Source: Mesobacillus jeotgali (GTDB taxonomy: Bacteria > Bacillota > Bacilli > Bacillales > Cytobacillaceae). Taken from it: a stretch of DNA of 64,000 bases. The stretch is from assembly GCF_031759225.1 (NCBI RefSeq), contig NZ_CP134494.1:684001-748000 (forward strand). The letters run 5' to 3'. Position 1 is the stretch's first letter. Each line of letters starts with the position of its first letter. A model generated the notes under the pieces. That model saw only the letters and a list, made by a program, of their open reading frames with translations, was not told where the DNA came from and searched no databases. Position numbers and translations under genes: made by a program. Positions 51,400-59,387 of the stretch are shown one piece after another.

Positions 51400-52263
51400 T
51401 TAAACGAAGTAGAACACAAACCCAGAGATAGTAGACATCATGATGACAGATGCGATGAAGGCAATCACAAGCTGCTTTTTAAAGATTGATTTTAGCAGGA
51501 TGACTTCAGGCAGACTGGCACCGGCTGAGCTAATCATCATTGCCATTACAGGGCCTAGGGCCATTCCTTTTATGATCAGCATTTGCGATATCGGAATCAT
51601 GCTCGAAAGCCTGATGTATAAAGGAATTCCTGCAATTGCAGCGACTGGGATCAGCCACCATGCATCGTGTCCGAACCATTTCGTGATGAATTCCGTTGGA
51701 ACGAGTCCGTGGATGACTGCACCAATCGCGGCACCAATCAGCAAGTAAGGGTAGACACTTTTCATCAGCGACCAGGTTTCGTCTAATGCAAATCTCCAAT
51801 TGAACTTCTGGTTCTTTTCTTCATATCCGGACATGATGACGTTTTTGACGTAGCGCTGAAATCCCAGCTTATCAAGTGTAAAGCCGATAACAATCGAGAA
51901 AACACTTGTGATGATTGTGTAAATAATTGTTACTTTCCAGCCCATTACAACACCCATGATGGTTAAAATCGTTGGGTCCAATACCGGAGAAGCGAAGAGG
52001 AAAATCATAACGATTGAAAATGGGATTTTCTTTTTCAGCATATTGACGACTACTGGTATCGTCGAGCAGGAACAAAATGGTGTGATAAATGCGAACAGGA
52101 TGGCGGCAAAGCTGGCGAACACTTTATTCCGTCCTGTCAGTTTCTTTTCGATTTTTTCATAAGGAATGTATCCCTGCAGCAGGCTGATCAAGAAGGAAAT
52201 CCCGATAAAAAGCACCGTTAATTCAAGGGCGATCCATAAAAAGCTTTTAAGAAATTCAATCAT
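51400..52263 (-). CDS. Permease of the ArsP/DUF318 (PF03773) family
   Basis: This 287-residue protein has eight or so membrane helices. The conserved AFITPFCSCSTIPVVVNML near residue 60 holds the CSC cysteines of this family, and a second signature, GIPLYIRLSSMIPISQMLI, lies near residue 215. Relatives export trivalent organoarsenicals (ArsP) or other metal(loid)s. A paralogue lies at 53435. It is the third gene of the minus-strand operon that starts with arsR at 52893. The exact substrate is not predicted. Confidence 0.85.
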   Translation of the reverse strand: MIEFLKSFLWIALELTVLFIGISFLISLLQGYIPYEKIEKKLTGRNKVFASFAAILFAFITPFCSCSTIPVVVNMLKKKIPFSIVMIFLFASPVLDPTILTIMGVVMGWKVTIIYTIITSVFSIVIGFTLDKLGFQRYVKNVIMSGYEEKNQKFNWRFALDETWSLMKSVYPYLLIGAAIGAVIHGLVPTEFITKWFGHDAWWLIPVAAIAGIPLYIRLSSMIPISQMLIIKGMALGPVMAMMISSAGASLPEVILLKSIFKKQLVIAFIASVIMMSTISGFVFYFV

Positions 52264-52285
52264 TAACCTCTACCTTCTTCCTCCA

Positions 52286-52459
52286 TTAATTAAGCGTTAG
52301 CTGGAACTGCGCAGCATTTAGGCTGCTGTTTTTGTTTCCGGAAAACAAAGGGAACTGCTTCGTTTCCGGCTGTTCATAGAACTTCCACGCGTGTCGAGCT
52401 TTCCTTTCAACTTCCTGCTGCTTTAACTGCGCCAAAGCTTGATAATCTTGATAAAACAT
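52286..52459 (-). CDS. Small hypothetical protein of the ArsR/permease operon
   Basis: This 57-residue protein begins MFYQDYQALAQLKQQEVERKA and contains a helical, charged N-terminal half and a Gln/Asn-rich end without cysteines. I chose the ATG at 52459 because AAGGAGAGG precedes it. Two ATCAA-N6-TTGAT palindromes lie directly upstream. It sits between arsR and the permease; the function is unknown. Confidence 0.6.
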   Translation of the reverse strand: MFYQDYQALAQLKQQEVERKARHAWKFYEQPETKQFPLFSGNKNSSLNAAQFQLTLN

Positions 52460-52475
52460 ATATATCCTCTCCTTA

Positions 52476-52513
52476 ATCAAAATATGTTGATTTATTTATC
52501 AAAAAAAATTGAT
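52476..52513 (-). promoter_or_regulatory. Two ATCAA-N6-TTGAT palindromes before the small gene
   Basis: Copies at 52476-52491 and 52498-52513 are separated by 6 bp (22-bp centre-to-centre, about two helical turns). They lie between the arsR stop and the next ribosome site, so this may be a second, internal regulated promoter or a repressor roadblock. Confidence 0.65.
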
Positions 52514-52533
52514 TAATATGTTGAAAAGTTAAC

Positions 52534-52893
52534 CTAACAACAGTTGCTAGGTCTGAAAAGGCAGCAAAGCTCTGGAGATAGGAGGTGGTTTATTTCTTCG
52601 GTGTTTACTGTGTAGTAGCTCCAGGTTCCCTTTGTTTCTTTTTTGATCAGATTGGCATCAAGCAAAATCTTCAAATGATACGACAATTTTGATTGGGGCA
52701 TGTCAATCAGTTCACTTAGATCACAAACGCAGCTGGAGTCTTGCTGGCATAGAAGATTGAGGATGTGCAGGCGTTTTTGGTCGGCAAGGGCTTTGAATTT
52801 CTTTTCGTATTTTTCAAAGGTGCTTTGAAGCGGTGGTTCCTTAGTAGCTTTGGAGTCAATGGTCAGGTCTGTTAAAGGAATGAATTTTTCCAC
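52534..52893 (-). CDS. ArsR/SmtB-family metal-sensing repressor
   Basis: This 119-residue protein has the winged helix KFKALADQKRLHILNLL followed by SSCVCDLSELIDMPQSKLSYHLKIL. The CVC pair in the recognition region matches ArsR-type metalloid sites. Four more cysteines at the C-terminus (ELCCLFRPSNCC) could complete an As(III), Cd or Zn site. The start is GTG at 52893 behind AAGGAGAGC. It is the first gene of a minus-strand operon with the small gene, permease and Cys-rich peptide, and its promoter is flanked by two candidate operators. Confidence 0.88.
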   Translation of the reverse strand: MEKFIPLTDLTIDSKATKEPPLQSTFEKYEKKFKALADQKRLHILNLLCQQDSSCVCDLSELIDMPQSKLSYHLKILLDANLIKKETKGTWSYYTVNTEEINHLLSPELCCLFRPSNCC

Positions 52894-52908
52894 TTTCAGC
52901 TCTCCTTA

Positions 52909-52983
52909 ATCAAAATCTCTTGATATATTGTATTGTATTTCCTGTAAAACCATTTTGCAACTGTTAAATCAAAAACTTTTGAT
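52909..52983 (-). promoter_or_regulatory. Promoter of the minus arsR operon flanked by two operators
   Basis: On the minus strand TTGCAA (52955-52960) and TACAAT (complement of 52932-52937) are 17 bp apart. ATCAA-N6-TTGAT palindromes lie just upstream (52968-52983) and just downstream (52909-52924), the classic arrangement for autorepression. Confidence 0.7.
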
Positions 52984-53027
52984 TTATTTTTCAGAAGTCG
53001 AAAATATGTCAAAAACAAAAACTACAA

Positions 53028-53050
53028 AACTAGAAAAATAGTTATATACT
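53028..53050 (+). promoter_or_regulatory. -10 element and AACTA-N6-TAGTT palindrome of the second arsR
   Basis: AACTA and TAGTT flank GAAAAA at 53028-53043 and directly precede TATACT at 53045-53050. The half-site geometry (5-6-5) equals that of the divergent operon, but the bases differ. This would be the operator of the second ArsR protein. Confidence 0.5.
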
Positions 53051-53070
53051 TTTAGTGGGAGGTGCTTTTA

Positions 53071-53442
53071 ATGAGTTGTCGAACTGGATGGGAAATTAAA
53101 TCGTCAAACACCATGCAAGGGGTCATTGCCAGAGCCAAGGAAGAATTTCTTCTTATGAATGCTGCGGAAGAGCTTGAAAGCACAGCGGCCTTTTTCAAGG
53201 CGCTCGGAGATGAGACACGACTTAAAATCATGACACTATTATGGTTCGAGGATCTATGCATGTGTGAAATCGTGGATGGCCTGTCGGGAGCATCCTCAAC
53301 AATCAGCCACCATTTGAAGATCATGGAAAAAGGAAAGCTCATCCAATCTAGAAAAGAAGGTAAGTTCACTGTCTACAGTCTGGACAAGGAAAGGCTGGCA
53401 CCTCTGATTCCGTATATAAAAGAAGGCGATTTACATGTTTAA
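53071..53442 (+). CDS. ArsR/SmtB-family repressor (CadC-like)
   Basis: This 123-residue winged-helix protein has AAFFKALGDETRLKIMTLLWFEDLCMCEIVDGL, with the CxC pair of the alpha-3 metal site, and then ASSTISHHLKIMEKGKLI as recognition helix. An N-terminal extension of 30 residues with Cys-3 recalls CadC, where an N-terminal Cys joins the site. I chose the ATG at 53071 after GGGAGGTG. Its stop overlaps the permease start by 8 bp. Confidence 0.87.
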   Translation: MSCRTGWEIKSSNTMQGVIARAKEEFLLMNAAEELESTAAFFKALGDETRLKIMTLLWFEDLCMCEIVDGLSGASSTISHHLKIMEKGKLIQSRKEGKFTVYSLDKERLAPLIPYIKEGDLHV

Positions 53443-54436
53443 TCAACTGGCCACTTGGCTTGTCGTCGATGTCTTGAATATGGAGCTGTCCTCCAGACTT
53501 GGCGGGGCACTGCATTTTTTCATTTACGACACGACGAAAATCTTATTTTTGCTCGCGGTAATGATTTTCGCGATTTCATTCGTCAGGAGCTTTTTCCCGC
53601 CTGAAAAAGTAAAGGATTGGCTTGAAGGCAGAAGGAAAGGCGCTGCCAGTGTGATGGCGGCTTTTCTCGGAGTGCTATCGCCATTCTGCTCCTGTTCGAC
53701 GGTGCCTTTATTTATCGGCTTTGTCGAGGCTGGAATCCCTTTAGGCATCACATTTACCTTCCTGATTTCATCCCCGATCGTGAACGAAATCTCGCTGGTC
53801 ATGCTGTTTTCCATTTTCGGCTGGAAAGTAGCCTTGATTTATGTCCTTGCCGGAATGACTCTGGCGATTGTCGCTGGTGCCATCATTGGCAAGCTGAAGA
53901 TGGAAAAGCATGTGGAGTCATATGTATATGAAATTGCGGCCGGCCAGGAAAGGATTCATATGCCTGAGGGCGATAACAAAACGTTTGCCGAAAAAATCAA
54001 GGCGTTATTCACTCGAGAGGAGCTTAAGGAAAGAACGATTTACGCTGCCCGGAATGTAGTGGAGACGGTACAGAAGATTTGGCTCTACCTTTTAGTCGGG
54101 ATTGGCATCGGGGCGTTCATTCACGGCTATGCGCCGCAGGATTTGCTTGTCAAATATGCCGGGGAAGGCAATTTCTTCGCAGTTCCGATCGCGACGATTT
54201 TAGGCGTGCCGCTATACTCTAATGCCGTCGGCTCCCTGCCTATTGTCGAAGCATTGTTAAACAAAGGGGTAGGTGCAGGTACAGCGCTGGCCTTCATGAT
54301 GGCCATCACGGCGTTGTCCCTTCCGGAAATGATTTTGCTCAGGAAGATAATCAAACCAAAGCTTATTGCTGTCTTCGCAGGCGTTGTCACCACAGGGATC
54401 ATCCTGATTGGTTATGGTTTCAATGCAATCTTATAA
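53435..54436 (+). CDS. Permease of the ArsP/DUF318 (PF03773) family, second copy
   Basis: This 333-residue permease has VLSPFCSCSTVPLFIGFVEAG with the CSC motif near residue 85 and GVPLYSNAVGSLPIVEALL near residue 260. It is longer than the minus-strand paralogue because of a cytoplasmic loop (about residues 155-200). It starts inside the upstream arsR gene, so expression is coupled. The next gene encodes a CKKC mini-thioredoxin, a common partner of this permease type. It is probably a metal(loid) efflux channel. Confidence 0.87.
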   Translation: MFNQLATWLVVDVLNMELSSRLGGALHFFIYDTTKILFLLAVMIFAISFVRSFFPPEKVKDWLEGRRKGAASVMAAFLGVLSPFCSCSTVPLFIGFVEAGIPLGITFTFLISSPIVNEISLVMLFSIFGWKVALIYVLAGMTLAIVAGAIIGKLKMEKHVESYVYEIAAGQERIHMPEGDNKTFAEKIKALFTREELKERTIYAARNVVETVQKIWLYLLVGIGIGAFIHGYAPQDLLVKYAGEGNFFAVPIATILGVPLYSNAVGSLPIVEALLNKGVGAGTALAFMMAITALSLPEMILLRKIIKPKLIAVFAGVVTTGIILIGYGFNAIL

Positions 54437-54456
54437 TTTATGAGGAGGAAATGAAG

Positions 54457-54687
54457 ATGAACATCAAAATACTAGGTACAGGCTGCAAAAAATGCCAGGA
54501 GCTCGAAAAAAACACTCGCATGGCGGTAGAAGAACTACAGCTTGAAGCACAGGTAGAAAAAGTTGAAGACATTAAGGAAATCATGAAATATAAGGTAATG
54601 AGTACGCCCGGACTTGTCATCGACGAAAAAGTGGTTTCCACAGGGAAGCTGCTCACAGTCAATGATCTGAAAGGTATTTTGGTTTAA
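54457..54687 (+). CDS. Thioredoxin-like mini-redox protein with CKKC motif
   Basis: This 76-residue protein matches the glutaredoxin-like TM0996/MTH895 family: MNIKILGTGCKKCQELEKNT with a CKKC active site, then STPGLVIDEKVVSTGK with the cis-Pro. It could reduce a metal site or hand a metal(loid) to the permease encoded 20 bp upstream. I chose the ATG at 54457 because GAGGAGG is 8 nt away; an ATG at 54451 is too close. A weak terminator-like repeat with a T-run lies at about 54701-54737. Confidence 0.88.
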   Translation: MNIKILGTGCKKCQELEKNTRMAVEELQLEAQVEKVEDIKEIMKYKVMSTPGLVIDEKVVSTGKLLTVNDLKGILV

Positions 54688-54873: not shown

Positions 54874-55218
54874 TTGATTAAGCAAAGTATTGAGATGGAT
54901 CAGGCTGCTGGAATTTTTAAGCTGCTTGGTGACAAGACGCGTTTGACGATGATGAGAATTCTTGCTGATCACGATTGCTGTGTTTGTGAGTTTGTAGCCA
55001 TGTTCGATGCCAGCCAGCCGGCGATCAGCCAGCATATTCGCAAGCTGAAGGATGCAGGTTTGGTAAAAGAAAGCAGGAGAGGGCAGTGGATTTTTTACTC
55101 GCTGAACCGGCAATATGAGCATTTCGATTTTGTTCAATTGCTCATGGATGCACTTCCAAGCCAGGAAGAAAAATTAACAGAACTTGAAAAGCAGGGAAAA
55201 CGGATTTCCTGTGATTAA
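54874..55218 (+). CDS. arsR: ArsR-family arsenic-responsive repressor
   Basis: This 114-residue winged-helix repressor has GIFKLLGDKTRLTMMRILADHDCCVCEFVAMF, with the C-C-V-C cysteines of an As(III) site on alpha-3, then ASQPAISQHIRKLKDAGLV. The start is TTG at 54874 after GGAGGTGGAG. It heads the ars operon (arsB follows after 15 bp) and has its own operator, distinct from those of the two neighbouring ArsR proteins. Confidence 0.9.
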   Translation: MIKQSIEMDQAAGIFKLLGDKTRLTMMRILADHDCCVCEFVAMFDASQPAISQHIRKLKDAGLVKESRRGQWIFYSLNRQYEHFDFVQLLMDALPSQEEKLTELEKQGKRISCD

Positions 55219-55233
55219 CGGAGGTGTGTGGAT

Positions 55234-56529
55234 TTGTCATTACCGATTATCGCTTCACTGATTTTCCTCGTGACGCTGACACTGGTCATCTGGCAGCCTA
55301 AAGGGCTGGGAATTGGCTGGTCAGCGGTAGGGGGAGCCATTTTAGCTTTGATCTTCGGTGTTGTTGACTTCCAGGACGTAATAGATGTTACGGGGATTGT
55401 CTGGAATGCAACACTTGCATTTATCGCAATTATTATCATTTCACTTATTTTAGATGAGATTGGATTTTTTGAATGGTCTGCCTTACATATGGCGAGGGCA
55501 GCAAAGGGTAACGGAGTGAAAATGTTCGTGTACGTCACCCTGCTTGGTGCTGCAGTTGCTGCATTGTTTGCGAATGACGGCGCTGCACTGATTTTGACGC
55601 CAATCGTTCTGGCGATGGTGAGGAACCTGAAATTCGAAGAAAAAATGGTGTTTCCTTTTATCATGGCGAGCGGATTCATTGCCGATACGACCTCATTGCC
55701 GCTGGTTGTAAGCAACCTCGTCAATATCGTTTCTGCTGACTACTTCAATATTGGATTCGTCGAGTATGCGTCTCGCATGATCGTGCCGAACTTTTTCTCA
55801 TTAGGTGCAAGTATTTTGGTCTTGTATTTATTCTTCAGAAAAAGCATCCCGAAAAACTACGAGATGTCTGATCTGAAAAAGCCGGTTGAAGCGATTAAGG
55901 ATATGAAAATGTTCCGCTTATCCTGGATTGTTTTGGGAGTCCTTCTTTTCGGTTACTTCACTAGCGAATTCCTGAATATCCCGGTATCATTCATTGCCGG
56001 CATCGTCGCGATTTTCTTCTTGATGATGGCAAGAAGAAGCCCAGCTGTCCATACGACGACCGTCGTCAAAGGCGCGCCATGGGCAATTGTATTCTTCTCA
56101 ATTGGTATGTATGTGGTCGTTTACGGTCTTCGAAACGCCGGATTGACGAACATCCTTGCTGATGTCATTCAGGCTGCAGCTGACCAGGGCTTATTTGTCG
56201 CAACGATCGGCATGGGTTTCATCGCCGCGATTCTTTCTTCGGTCATGAACAATATGCCAACTGTCATGATTGACGCGCTGGCGATTGCGGATACTAATAC
56301 AACAGGAGTGGTCCGCGAAGCACTGATTTATGCCAACGTCATTGGTTCTGATTTAGGTCCGAAAATCACGCCAATCGGATCACTGGCAACACTATTGTGG
56401 CTCCACGTCCTTTCACTGAAAGGCGTCAAGATTTCATGGGGCACTTATTTTAAAACCGGAATCATTTTAACCATTCCTACTCTGTTCATCACTTTGGTAG
56501 GTCTATATATTTGGTTGCTAATTATCTAA
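55234..56529 (+). CDS. arsB: Arsenite efflux pump ArsB
   Basis: This 431-residue protein with about 12 membrane helices belongs to the ArsB/NhaD ion-transporter superfamily and exports arsenite and antimonite. [39 protein letters not shown] and [13 protein letters not shown] with [18 protein letters not shown] are ArsB signatures. The length matches ArsB (about 430). The start is most likely TTG at 55234, with GAGGTG seven bases before; a GTG at 55228 overlaps that site. It is the second gene of the operon. Confidence 0.94.
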
Positions 56530-56547: not shown

Positions 56548-56967
56548 ATGGCTAAAAAAACTATTTACTTCTTATGTACTGGAAACTCTTGCAGAAGCCA
56601 AATGGCTGAAGGATGGGCAAAAAAGTATCTGGGTGACGAGTGGGAAGTGAAGAGTGCGGGTCTTGAAGCGCACGGATTGAACCCGAATGCTATAAAGGCG
56701 ATGAATGAGGTGGGAATCGATATCACTGGCCACACATCAGATGTCATCGACCCAGAAATCCTGAACAATTCAGAGCTTGTGGTCACACTTTGCGGGCACG
56801 CAGATGAGCACTGCCCGGTAACACCTCCACATGTAAAACGCGAACACTGGGGCTTTGACGACCCGGCAAAAGCTGAAGGAACAGAAGAAGAAAAGTGGGC
56901 CGTATTCCAGCGCGTCCGCGACCAAATCAGCGACCGTATCAAGACATTCGCTGAGACAGGGAAATAA
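56548..56967 (+). CDS. arsC: Thioredoxin-coupled arsenate reductase
   Basis: This 139-residue low-molecular-weight phosphatase-fold enzyme reduces arsenate to arsenite with electrons from thioredoxin. The P-loop is [17 protein letters not shown] with nucleophile C10 and C15. The relay cysteines C82 and C89 lie in [11 protein letters not shown], the same positions as in B. subtilis Ars[19 protein letters not shown] is also characteristic. It follows arsB by 18 bp with a GGGAG-like site. Together with ArsB it gives arsenate resistance. Confidence 0.95.
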
Positions 56968-57016
56968 TTCGAAGCCAAGGGGAAACTCTTGGCCTTTTTA
57001 AAAGGAGGAGCAATGA

Positions 57017-57445
57017 ATGAGCAAGAACTACCAAGCTTTGATACCTGGCAGGATTTTTATCGGCGGTACAGATGCGATCCCCGAACTGCTTGAAAACGAG
57101 AAAATCGATATGGTTTATGATTTGCGAGCGGAAAATAAGGATGGCGAGTATGAATATCCACGCACACATCTGCCAATGTATGACGATGACTCCCAGCAGG
57201 ATGAGTCCGTTCAGAAGGCGATTGAGGAAGTGGAGCGAGCTTATGATGCCGGAAAAAACATCTACTTTCATTGCTCAACTGGCAGAACGCGGACAGGTAC
57301 CCTTGCCGCTGGAACATTGCTGAAACTAGGTAAAGCTAATAGTGTTGATGAAGCGAAGGCACAAGCAAGAGAAGTTCGTGAAGTACTGAATCTTGATTCC
57401 AAATTGATCACATCTCTTGAGAGAATTTTTCCTGAGAAAAAATGA
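57017..57445 (+). CDS. Dual-specificity-type protein phosphatase in the ars operon
   Basis: This 142-residue protein has the HCX5R phosphatase loop in IYFHCSTGRTRTG (C86, R92) and a general-acid Asp candidate in LPMYDDDSQ. MVYDLRAENKDG resembles DSP/cyclin-like and MptpB-like enzymes. The substrate could be a phosphoprotein, a phospho-sugar or a nucleotide. An AAAGGAGGAG site precedes the ATG. Its stop overlaps the next start (ATGA), so it is coupled to the HesB-like gene. Such a gene is not a standard part of ars operons. Confidence 0.82.
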   Translation: MSKNYQALIPGRIFIGGTDAIPELLENEKIDMVYDLRAENKDGEYEYPRTHLPMYDDDSQQDESVQKAIEEVERAYDAGKNIYFHCSTGRTRTGTLAAGTLLKLGKANSVDEAKAQAREVREVLNLDSKLITSLERIFPEKK

Positions 57446-57711
57446 AGATAACTGACAAAGCACGTGAACGAATATTGAACCTGCTGGATGAGAAGCAGAT
57501 TCCAGGCATCCGGCTTTATTTTGCCGGGATCAGCTGAAGGAGCTCCAAAATTGGACTGGCTCTGGATGAGCCGGACGAAGACGATGAAATCATCCTGGTC
57601 AATGGAATCAAGGTCGCTGTTGACCCTTCGATTGAATATGAAACAAAAGGTTTGACGATAGACTTTAAAGACGATTTTCTTTTAACAAAGAGCAACAGAG
57701 ATTTCTGCTAA
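57442..57711 (+). CDS. HesB/IscA-like protein with in-frame UGA, candidate selenoprotein
   Basis: From the ATG at 57442 (overlapping the phosphatase stop) the frame reads MKITDKARERILNLLDEKQI, then GIRLYFAGIS, then TGA at 57535-57537, then RSSKIGLALDEPDEDDEIIL and on to TAA at 57709-57711: 90 codons. Both halves match the HesB-like family (TIGR01911 type). In that family the residue at this point is the conserved Cys of the HesB domain or selenocysteine. U32 is the only internal stop and the frame is otherwise clean. A stem-loop 19 nt downstream fits a bacterial SECIS. The protein may carry or repair Fe-S or bind As/Se. The alternative is a TGC-to-TGA nonsense mutation. Confidence 0.75.
57556..57574 (+). 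promoter_or_regulatory. Candidate bacterial SECIS stem-loop
   Basis: CTGGCTC and GAGCCGG form a 7-bp stem (one U-G) with the 5-nt loop TGGAT. The loop lies about 28 nt after the UGA and has G as its second base. Published bacterial SECIS rules ask for 16-37 nt and a G in the first two loop positions. Confidence 0.55.
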
Positions 57712-57712
57712 G

Positions 57713-57738
57713 CAGCCGCTATTTTGGTGGCTGTTTTT
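57713..57738 (+). terminator. Intrinsic terminator of the ars operon
   Basis: CAGCC and GGCTG enclose an 11-nt loop and are followed by five T, directly after the HesB-like stop. Confidence 0.78.
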
Positions 57739-58946: not shown

Positions 58947-59387
58947 TCACCACAAATTCGGTTTCACGACCATGAACCAGAGCATCGACATCAACAGGAT
59001 GATGTATGTCCAAATGGTGCGTTTCAGTTTTGCGGAGAGTTCTATTTTATTCGCGCCTTCTTCGGCAAATTTCCGGAGTGTTGGCGAGAATGCCCTTGCA
59101 AGGAAAAAGAGTGAGGCAAACAGCAAGGCCAGTGTCGCGATAATCCACGGTGTTTGCCATGTCCATGGTCCGAGGATGACGAGCAGCACTCCTGTTCCAA
59201 TCAGTACATGGCCGGCGTGCTTTGACAGCCGGACAGCTGATTTCAATGTAGCCAGATGAGCCTCGAGCTCTTTCCCCACTGCATCAGGCAGTTTTTTTAC
59301 AATTGGCATCAAAATGAAGAACGGGCCAATCGACATAATCACGCTTGCGACGTGAAGATAAATAATCGCTCGGTATGCCAGATTCAT
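58947..59387 (-). CDS. Four-helix membrane protein, DUF2269/CopD-like
   Basis: This 146-residue protein has four hydrophobic helices: AIIYLHVASVIMSIGPFFILM, HVLIGTGVLLVILGPWTW, PWIIATLALLFASLFFL and TIWTYIILLMSMLWFMV. His residues in helices 1 and 2 could bind heme, as in CopD and DUF2269 proteins. It is the second gene of a minus-strand pair, 3 bp after the ASCH gene. The function is unknown. Confidence 0.7.
   Translation of the reverse strand: MNLAYRAIIYLHVASVIMSIGPFFILMPIVKKLPDAVGKELEAHLATLKSAVRLSKHAGHVLIGTGVLLVILGPWTWQTPWIIATLALLFASLFFLARAFSPTLRKFAEEGANKIELSAKLKRTIWTYIILLMSMLWFMVVKPNLW

Follow-up and report, generated by a model that had tools for sequence, protein, structure and literature searches.

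A predicted HesB-like selenoprotein gene at the end of an arsenic resistance operon in Mesobacillus jeotgali

HesB-like selenoproteins are a long-known family (PMC1794560, PMC9312934, PMC13188914); UxGP is given as their motif in Table 1 of PMC13188914, and the functions of most such selenoproteins are called unclear in the same source. The pairing of a HesB-like with a phosphatase gene is likewise already known, from the ars1 operon of Bacillus sp. CDB3 (arsRYCDATorf7orf8), which ends in the HesB-like orf7 and the dual-specificity phosphatase gene orf8 and carries, right after arsC, an attenuator hairpin that lowers the long transcript; passages on the operon in PMC4562236 and PMC5481582 do not mention selenocysteine (Sec). 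Described here are an apparently new association of ars operons with the Sec form and a gene that, judged from its sequence, is almost certainly a real selenoprotein gene encoding a divergent member of the family. The setting of Sec HesB-like genes in ars operons was found to be recurrent and is apparently unreported, no such gene having turned up in searches of open-licence PubMed Central papers. If the assignment is true, Bacillales ars operons hold a selenoprotein gene missed by ordinary gene calling, HesB-like selenoproteins gain a testable biological setting, and selenium supply is linked to arsenic tolerance.

Organization of the operon and product of its last gene

The window (the whole 64,000-nucleotide stretch that was analysed) carries in a row on the forward strand, with model scores given against cut-offs, genes for an ArsR family regulator (arsR, 54874..55218; NF033788, 91.8 vs 55 bits), an arsenite efflux transporter (arsB, 55228..56529; TIGR00935, 764 vs 415 bits), a thioredoxin-type arsenate reductase (arsC, 56548..56967; TIGR02691, 231.9 vs 174.3 bits), a dual-specificity phosphatase (DSP, 57017..57445; PF00782, 42.7 vs 33.5 bits) and, last, the HesB-like protein (hesB, 57442..57711). 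The arrangement shares with CDB3 ars1 the arsR, efflux pump, arsC, HesB-like and DSP genes on one strand and a hairpin after arsC, but the phosphatase gene precedes hesB, and arsD, arsA and trxB were not detected near hesB. Terminator-like hairpins on the same strand lie between arsC and DSP (56974..56993), where by analogy with CDB3 an attenuator may be present, and 3′ of hesB (57710..57736), probably marking the operon end; hesB would be transcribed together with the ars operon. The arsC–DSP hairpin was kept in eight of nine members of the window's clade (L061 being without it), with a two-sided change from A–U to G–C in three of them (L062–L064). Because the CDB3 hairpin at a like place lowers the long transcript, DSP and hesB would by analogy be produced at a lower level, or later, than arsRBC. 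Between 56900 and 57900 no match to an Rfam family attained the gathering score.

Beside the operon, positions 51400–54687 of the window encode a thioredoxin-like protein of the ArsE/MTH895 type (TIGR00412, 108.8 vs 62 bits), two more ArsR-type regulators and two permeases that are similar, at scores under the cut-offs, to SaoE/SO_0444 efflux transporters; with the ars operon they can be regarded as a larger metalloid island.

The hesB frame comprises 90 codons interrupted by a single TGA at codon 32 (57535..57537, forward strand), and its ATG at 57442 overlaps the DSP stop codon (ATGA); read with Sec at the UGA it gives 89 residues with exactly one Sec (residue 32) and one Cys (residue 89). 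Frame and coupling are as described in the original prediction, which had the sequence after the TGA starting with SSKIG: an Arg comes directly after the TGA, and the context is GIS-U-RSSKIGLALDEP. As had also been foreseen for gene callers in general, hesB was absent from the program-made list of open reading frames of 60 aa or more.

The product, with the TGA translated as either Sec or Cys, scored 32.5 bits with PF01521 (gathering score 26.3 bits). Residue 32 was aligned with the Cys of Cys-containing relatives and of AQ_1857 (1nwb), so that Sec/Cys occupies the position of the first Cys in the A-type fold. An AlphaFold2 model (pLDDT 89.5, pTM 0.79) had E. coli IscA as its best structural match, IscA and SufA being the top matches (TM 0.79 by query length against IscA 1r94 and 1s98); pLDDT was under 50 at residues 87–89, so that Cys89 is not confidently placed. 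All 34 scanned relatives matched IscA/HesB models. PF01521 and the predicted IscA-like fold are shared with the A-type Fe–S carriers IscA, SufA and ErpA, from which the window's protein differs by Sec at the first Cys site. IscA-type proteins have three Cys ligands and IscA carries a C-terminal Cys-x-Cys, whereas the window's protein has Sec32 and a single terminal Cys.

Assignment to the HesB-like family (TIGR01911), as originally proposed, is borne out by fold and similarity and not by model cut-offs or by UxGP. The protein scored 42.7 bits with TIGR01911 (curated cut-off 66.35 bits), which none of eight tested relatives passed (best 65.2 bits), and 45.8 bits with NF038090 (IscA_HesB_Se; cut-off 85 bits), which again none of eight passed (46.6 to 61.2 bits for those listed, one not being listed at the E-value used); URSS stands in place of UxGP. 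Shared with the known HesB-like selenoproteins are size, fold family, place of Sec/Cys, a hairpin directly after the UGA and the presence of Sec and Cys versions among relatives, and the differences are the scores under both cut-offs, URSS, the one terminal Cys and the encoding in an ars operon. By predicted fold and sequence similarity, the protein is a divergent relative of HesB-like selenoproteins.

The in-frame UGA, the SECIS hairpin and the selenocysteine machinery

In bacteria, a SECIS element is a hairpin that closely follows the UGA and has a G at one of the first two positions of its loop. Such a hairpin is predicted at 57556..57574 (forward strand), with a 7-bp stem (57556–57562 with 57568–57574, CTGGCTC/GAGCCGG) and the loop UGGAU (57563–57567), beginning 21 nt (stem) and 28 nt (loop) after the U of UGA and agreeing with the stem and loop first reported. 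A 45-nt piece folded at −15.1 kcal/mol (z −2.75), and 1 of 200 shuffled versions folded equally well.

The hairpin overlaps the protein motif LALDEP, and protein conservation therefore had to be separated from SECIS conservation. Codons were compared between 98 TGA-bearing (Sec) rows (79 distinct 48-mers) and 17 Cys rows, omitting L090 and L151 (Cys, missed by the pattern), L093 (TAA), L172 (frameshift) and L173–L175 (outgroups or partial). L075 (frameshift) was counted among the 98 and left out of the tree and residue-pattern counts; L141 and L149 contributed two Sec rows each, and eight loci were shortened by contig ends or partial. The loop was UGGAN, with G as its second base, in all 98 Sec rows. 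At codon 9 after the TGA, Leu was encoded by CTG in 98/98 Sec rows vs 0/16 Leu codons of Cys rows, codon 8 was GCT in 88 of 89 Ala and TCT in 9 of 9 Ser codons of Sec rows, and codon 7 ended in G in 96/98. Per stem position, pairing was possible in 92–100% of Sec rows vs 6–82% of the 17 Cys rows. The rows are related by descent, and Fisher values for these codon contrasts accordingly overstate certainty. Codon 11 was dropped as a second clean contrast (GAG 95/98 vs 2/17, Fisher), 13 of the 17 Cys rows having no Glu there; restricted to Glu codons, GAG was found in 95/96 (Sec rows) vs 2/4 (Cys rows). The SECIS case thus rests on codons 9 (Leu), 8 and 7. The choice among synonymous codons is conserved at the places required for the stem, which the coding frame alone would not demand, and the hairpin behaves as a SECIS element.

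Absence of selABCD had been named as a ground for abandoning the selenoprotein reading, and the single-contig genome was found to carry selA, selB, selD and tRNA-Sec, all over cut-offs (the tRNA over Rfam's score, with anticodon TCA). The selD gene itself has one in-frame TGA near its start (L017 1531–1533), followed by a stable fold. Among 121 genomes searched (the window's own and 120 relatives), a TGA-bearing HesB-like copy was present in 67, and selA was over cut-off in 67/67, counting as positive G004 and G015, whose assemblies show a damaged or split selA; selA was present in 23 of the 54 genomes without such a row, and of the 16 genomes that have Cys rows, 8 were without it. The first expectation that such a gene would be unusual in a Bacillus-like organism was therefore only partly right, TGA-bearing HesB-like genes being present in 67/121 genomes and many of them lying in ars operons.

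The other ground named, close relatives with TGC/TGT and no SECIS conservation, did not materialize. Eight close orthologues from the same genus (73–84% identical to the window's protein) all carry TGA and share the hairpin codons, except for one G-to-A change in L058 (GAA for GAG). With the window's gene they make up one starred clade on the tree (SH-aLRT 100), with hesB behind the same DSP gene and TGA in 9/9 genomes. For the codons after the TGA, mean dN was 0.064 and dS 0.721 (dN/dS about 0.09; 42 codons, 35/36 pairs usable), and beyond the hairpin 0.072 and 1.23 (32/36 pairs), which indicates purifying selection 3′ of the TGA.

The in-frame TGA, the failure of ordinary ORF calling to find hesB and one relative (G051) with TAA at the same codon could be taken to mean a nonsense-mutated pseudogene translated to residue 31 only. 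This is highly improbable and was rejected in view of the Sec machinery, the retention of TGA and of the SECIS codons across 98 rows and the purifying selection after the TGA. Conservation of TGA and hairpin among relatives is more than chance, and, together with the machinery and the selection, it leads us to regard the UGA as almost certainly read as Sec.

Linkage to arsenic genes and possible function

Around HesB-like matches, 133 loci were searched by tblastn for ArsB, ArsC, Acr3, ArsA and ArsD within about 6 kb. Such genes were found near 39/98 Sec rows, 15/19 Cys rows and the one TAA row, and near none of 14 ErpA-like controls searched in the same way. The ars-linked rows had no gene on the opposite strand and came from 13 genera (Sec), 13 genera (Cys) and 24 genera overall. 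By the same test 59/98 Sec rows were not near ars genes, which indicates further roles of the family beyond arsenic. The window's genome holds three copies: the Sec form of the window, a Cys form in a second operon (arsRBCDA, trxB, DSP, hesB; L094) and a second Sec form, one of the 59, away from ars genes (L076). With Sec and Cys versions in like operons of one genome, a direct comparison of Sec with Cys is possible. DSP was nearby in 27/39 ars-linked Sec rows vs 6/15 ars-linked Cys rows; trxB is present in some related ars operons, and arsD lies near many relatives of the window's gene.

At the Sec site, U-R-S-S was found in 9/9 clade members vs U-x-x-P in 86 of the 88 remaining Sec proteins. 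The clade keeps Sec and one terminal Cys, with residue 18 as an additional Cys in four of the nine members; a Cys-Cys end is present in all other ars-linked Sec proteins of the set (29/29). Outside the clade, Cys-Cys ends were found in 43/44 ars-linked vs 23/63 other proteins, an association that is strong by count and not significant on the tree (3 usable independent pairs). The URSS form was not found outside the genus among the 121 genomes and 397 genomes of the order (the latter at E up to 1e-20). In nine more genomes of the genus a UG[SR]P form follows arsD, arsA and DSP, and 15 of the 17 other same-genus loci (8 URSS and 9 UG[SR]P) share the same two downstream genes (homologues of those at 58947 and 59391). 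Within the genus, arsD/arsA matches were found in 0/9 URSS rows, and both genes in 9/9 UG[SR]P rows of the like slot. It was not concluded that the changed protein results from the loss of arsD/arsA, as the pattern may be one event; four other ars-linked rows without arsD/arsA matches (L083, L088, L119, L121) keep Cys-Cys, which counts against the idea.

It appears quite probable that hesB encodes a functional selenoprotein whose role, by whichever chemistry, is in some way related to arsenic. A soft-metal arsenite site is suggested by the location among ars genes, by the exchange of Sec and Cys at the first ligand position and by the Cys-Cys end of most ars-linked members. In the mechanism that we propose, the product would be an A-type carrier with the IscA fold, in which the Sec32 selenolate and the C-terminal Cys thiolate would form such a site, and arsenite held there would be buffered or passed on in the direction of the ArsB pump, much as by an ArsD-like helper. 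ArsD, an arsenite metallochaperone and a small thiol-rich ars operon product, is likened to the hesB product by function only; arsD lies near many relatives and not near the window's gene. The three-ligand site suggested by other ars-linked members is missing in the window's clade, which counts against an arsenite site, as do the lack of significance of the Cys-Cys association on independent pairs and the many TGA rows away from ars genes; arsenite binding by the hesB product is given somewhat less than an even chance. The wider proposal is more tentative: HesB-like Sec/Cys proteins may form a dedicated, overlooked part of Bacillales arsenic resistance, an A-type carrier turned arsenite-binding helper, in which selenium would serve as ligand in cells able to make Sec, and the window's clade would be a reduced two-ligand form working without arsD and arsA.

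Other roles were weighed against this proposal. As an Fe–S helper, the selenoprotein would be an A-type carrier delivering or repairing clusters in arsenite-damaged enzymes, and for this reason it would be co-expressed with ars genes; the PF01521 score, IscA/SufA as best structural matches and the IscA/HesB matches of 34/34 scanned relatives speak for it, but the three Cys ligands of IscA-type proteins are down to Sec32 and Cys89, and we hold it to be somewhat unlikely. A redox function, in which a Sec32–Cys89 selenenylsulfide pair would reduce ArsC, the phosphatase or another partner, is consistent with the one Sec and one Cys of the window's protein, the overlap of hesB with the phosphatase gene downstream of arsC, DSP near 27 of the 39 ars-linked Sec rows and trxB in some related operons. 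It is nevertheless unlikely, as neither a CxxU nor a UxxC motif is present, DSP is near only 6/15 ars-linked Cys rows, and A-type carriers are not known to act as reductases.

A general HesB-like selenoprotein unrelated to arsenic could also hitch-hike with ars operons, which move on plasmids, and the 59 Sec rows away from ars genes fit this view. It is rather improbable, however, given same-strand linkage in 24 genera, in both Sec and Cys forms and with different pump genes, the absence of linkage in the 14 ErpA-like controls and the at least three changes of the Sec-ars label that the tree needs on starred branches.

Further members on plasmids and in other genomes

Outside the order, ten Bacillota loci gave no match to the ars queries in 1.5-kb flanks, and the ars link is therefore shown within the order only. 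These loci come from a TIGR01911 search of 299 Bacillota genomes, which matched 11 (the window's own and the ten others), none over cut-off. P0002, which has Cys at the Sec site, was not counted among the natural Cys forms, as the database may write U as C, and P0003 has Trp there, probably because a gene caller translated the UGA in this way.

Matches to the HesB-like gene were obtained in 14 plasmid records. In two Cytobacillus plasmids (L191, L192; 6001–6276) a TGA-bearing hesB lies behind arsRBCDA, trxB and DSP; the distributed gene table lists these genes and nothing at hesB, the table being incomplete according to its makers. In an Alicyclobacillus plasmid (L204 2539–2820) a Cys form follows arsC, an ArsI-type gene and trxB. 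The name ‘adhesin’, unlikely for an A-type carrier, is given to HesB-like genes of plasmids from Alicyclobacillus and Priestia (L204; H7, H8, H13, H14).

The ars-linked hesB of G051 (L093, at 6001) has TAA exactly at the Sec codon, by loss of function or sequencing error, and G028 of the same genus (L099) has TGA. Two loci (L141, L149) carry two TGA-bearing HesB-like genes each, about 2 kb apart, one gene of the pair having U-N-K-T or U-S-R-P instead of the usual motif.
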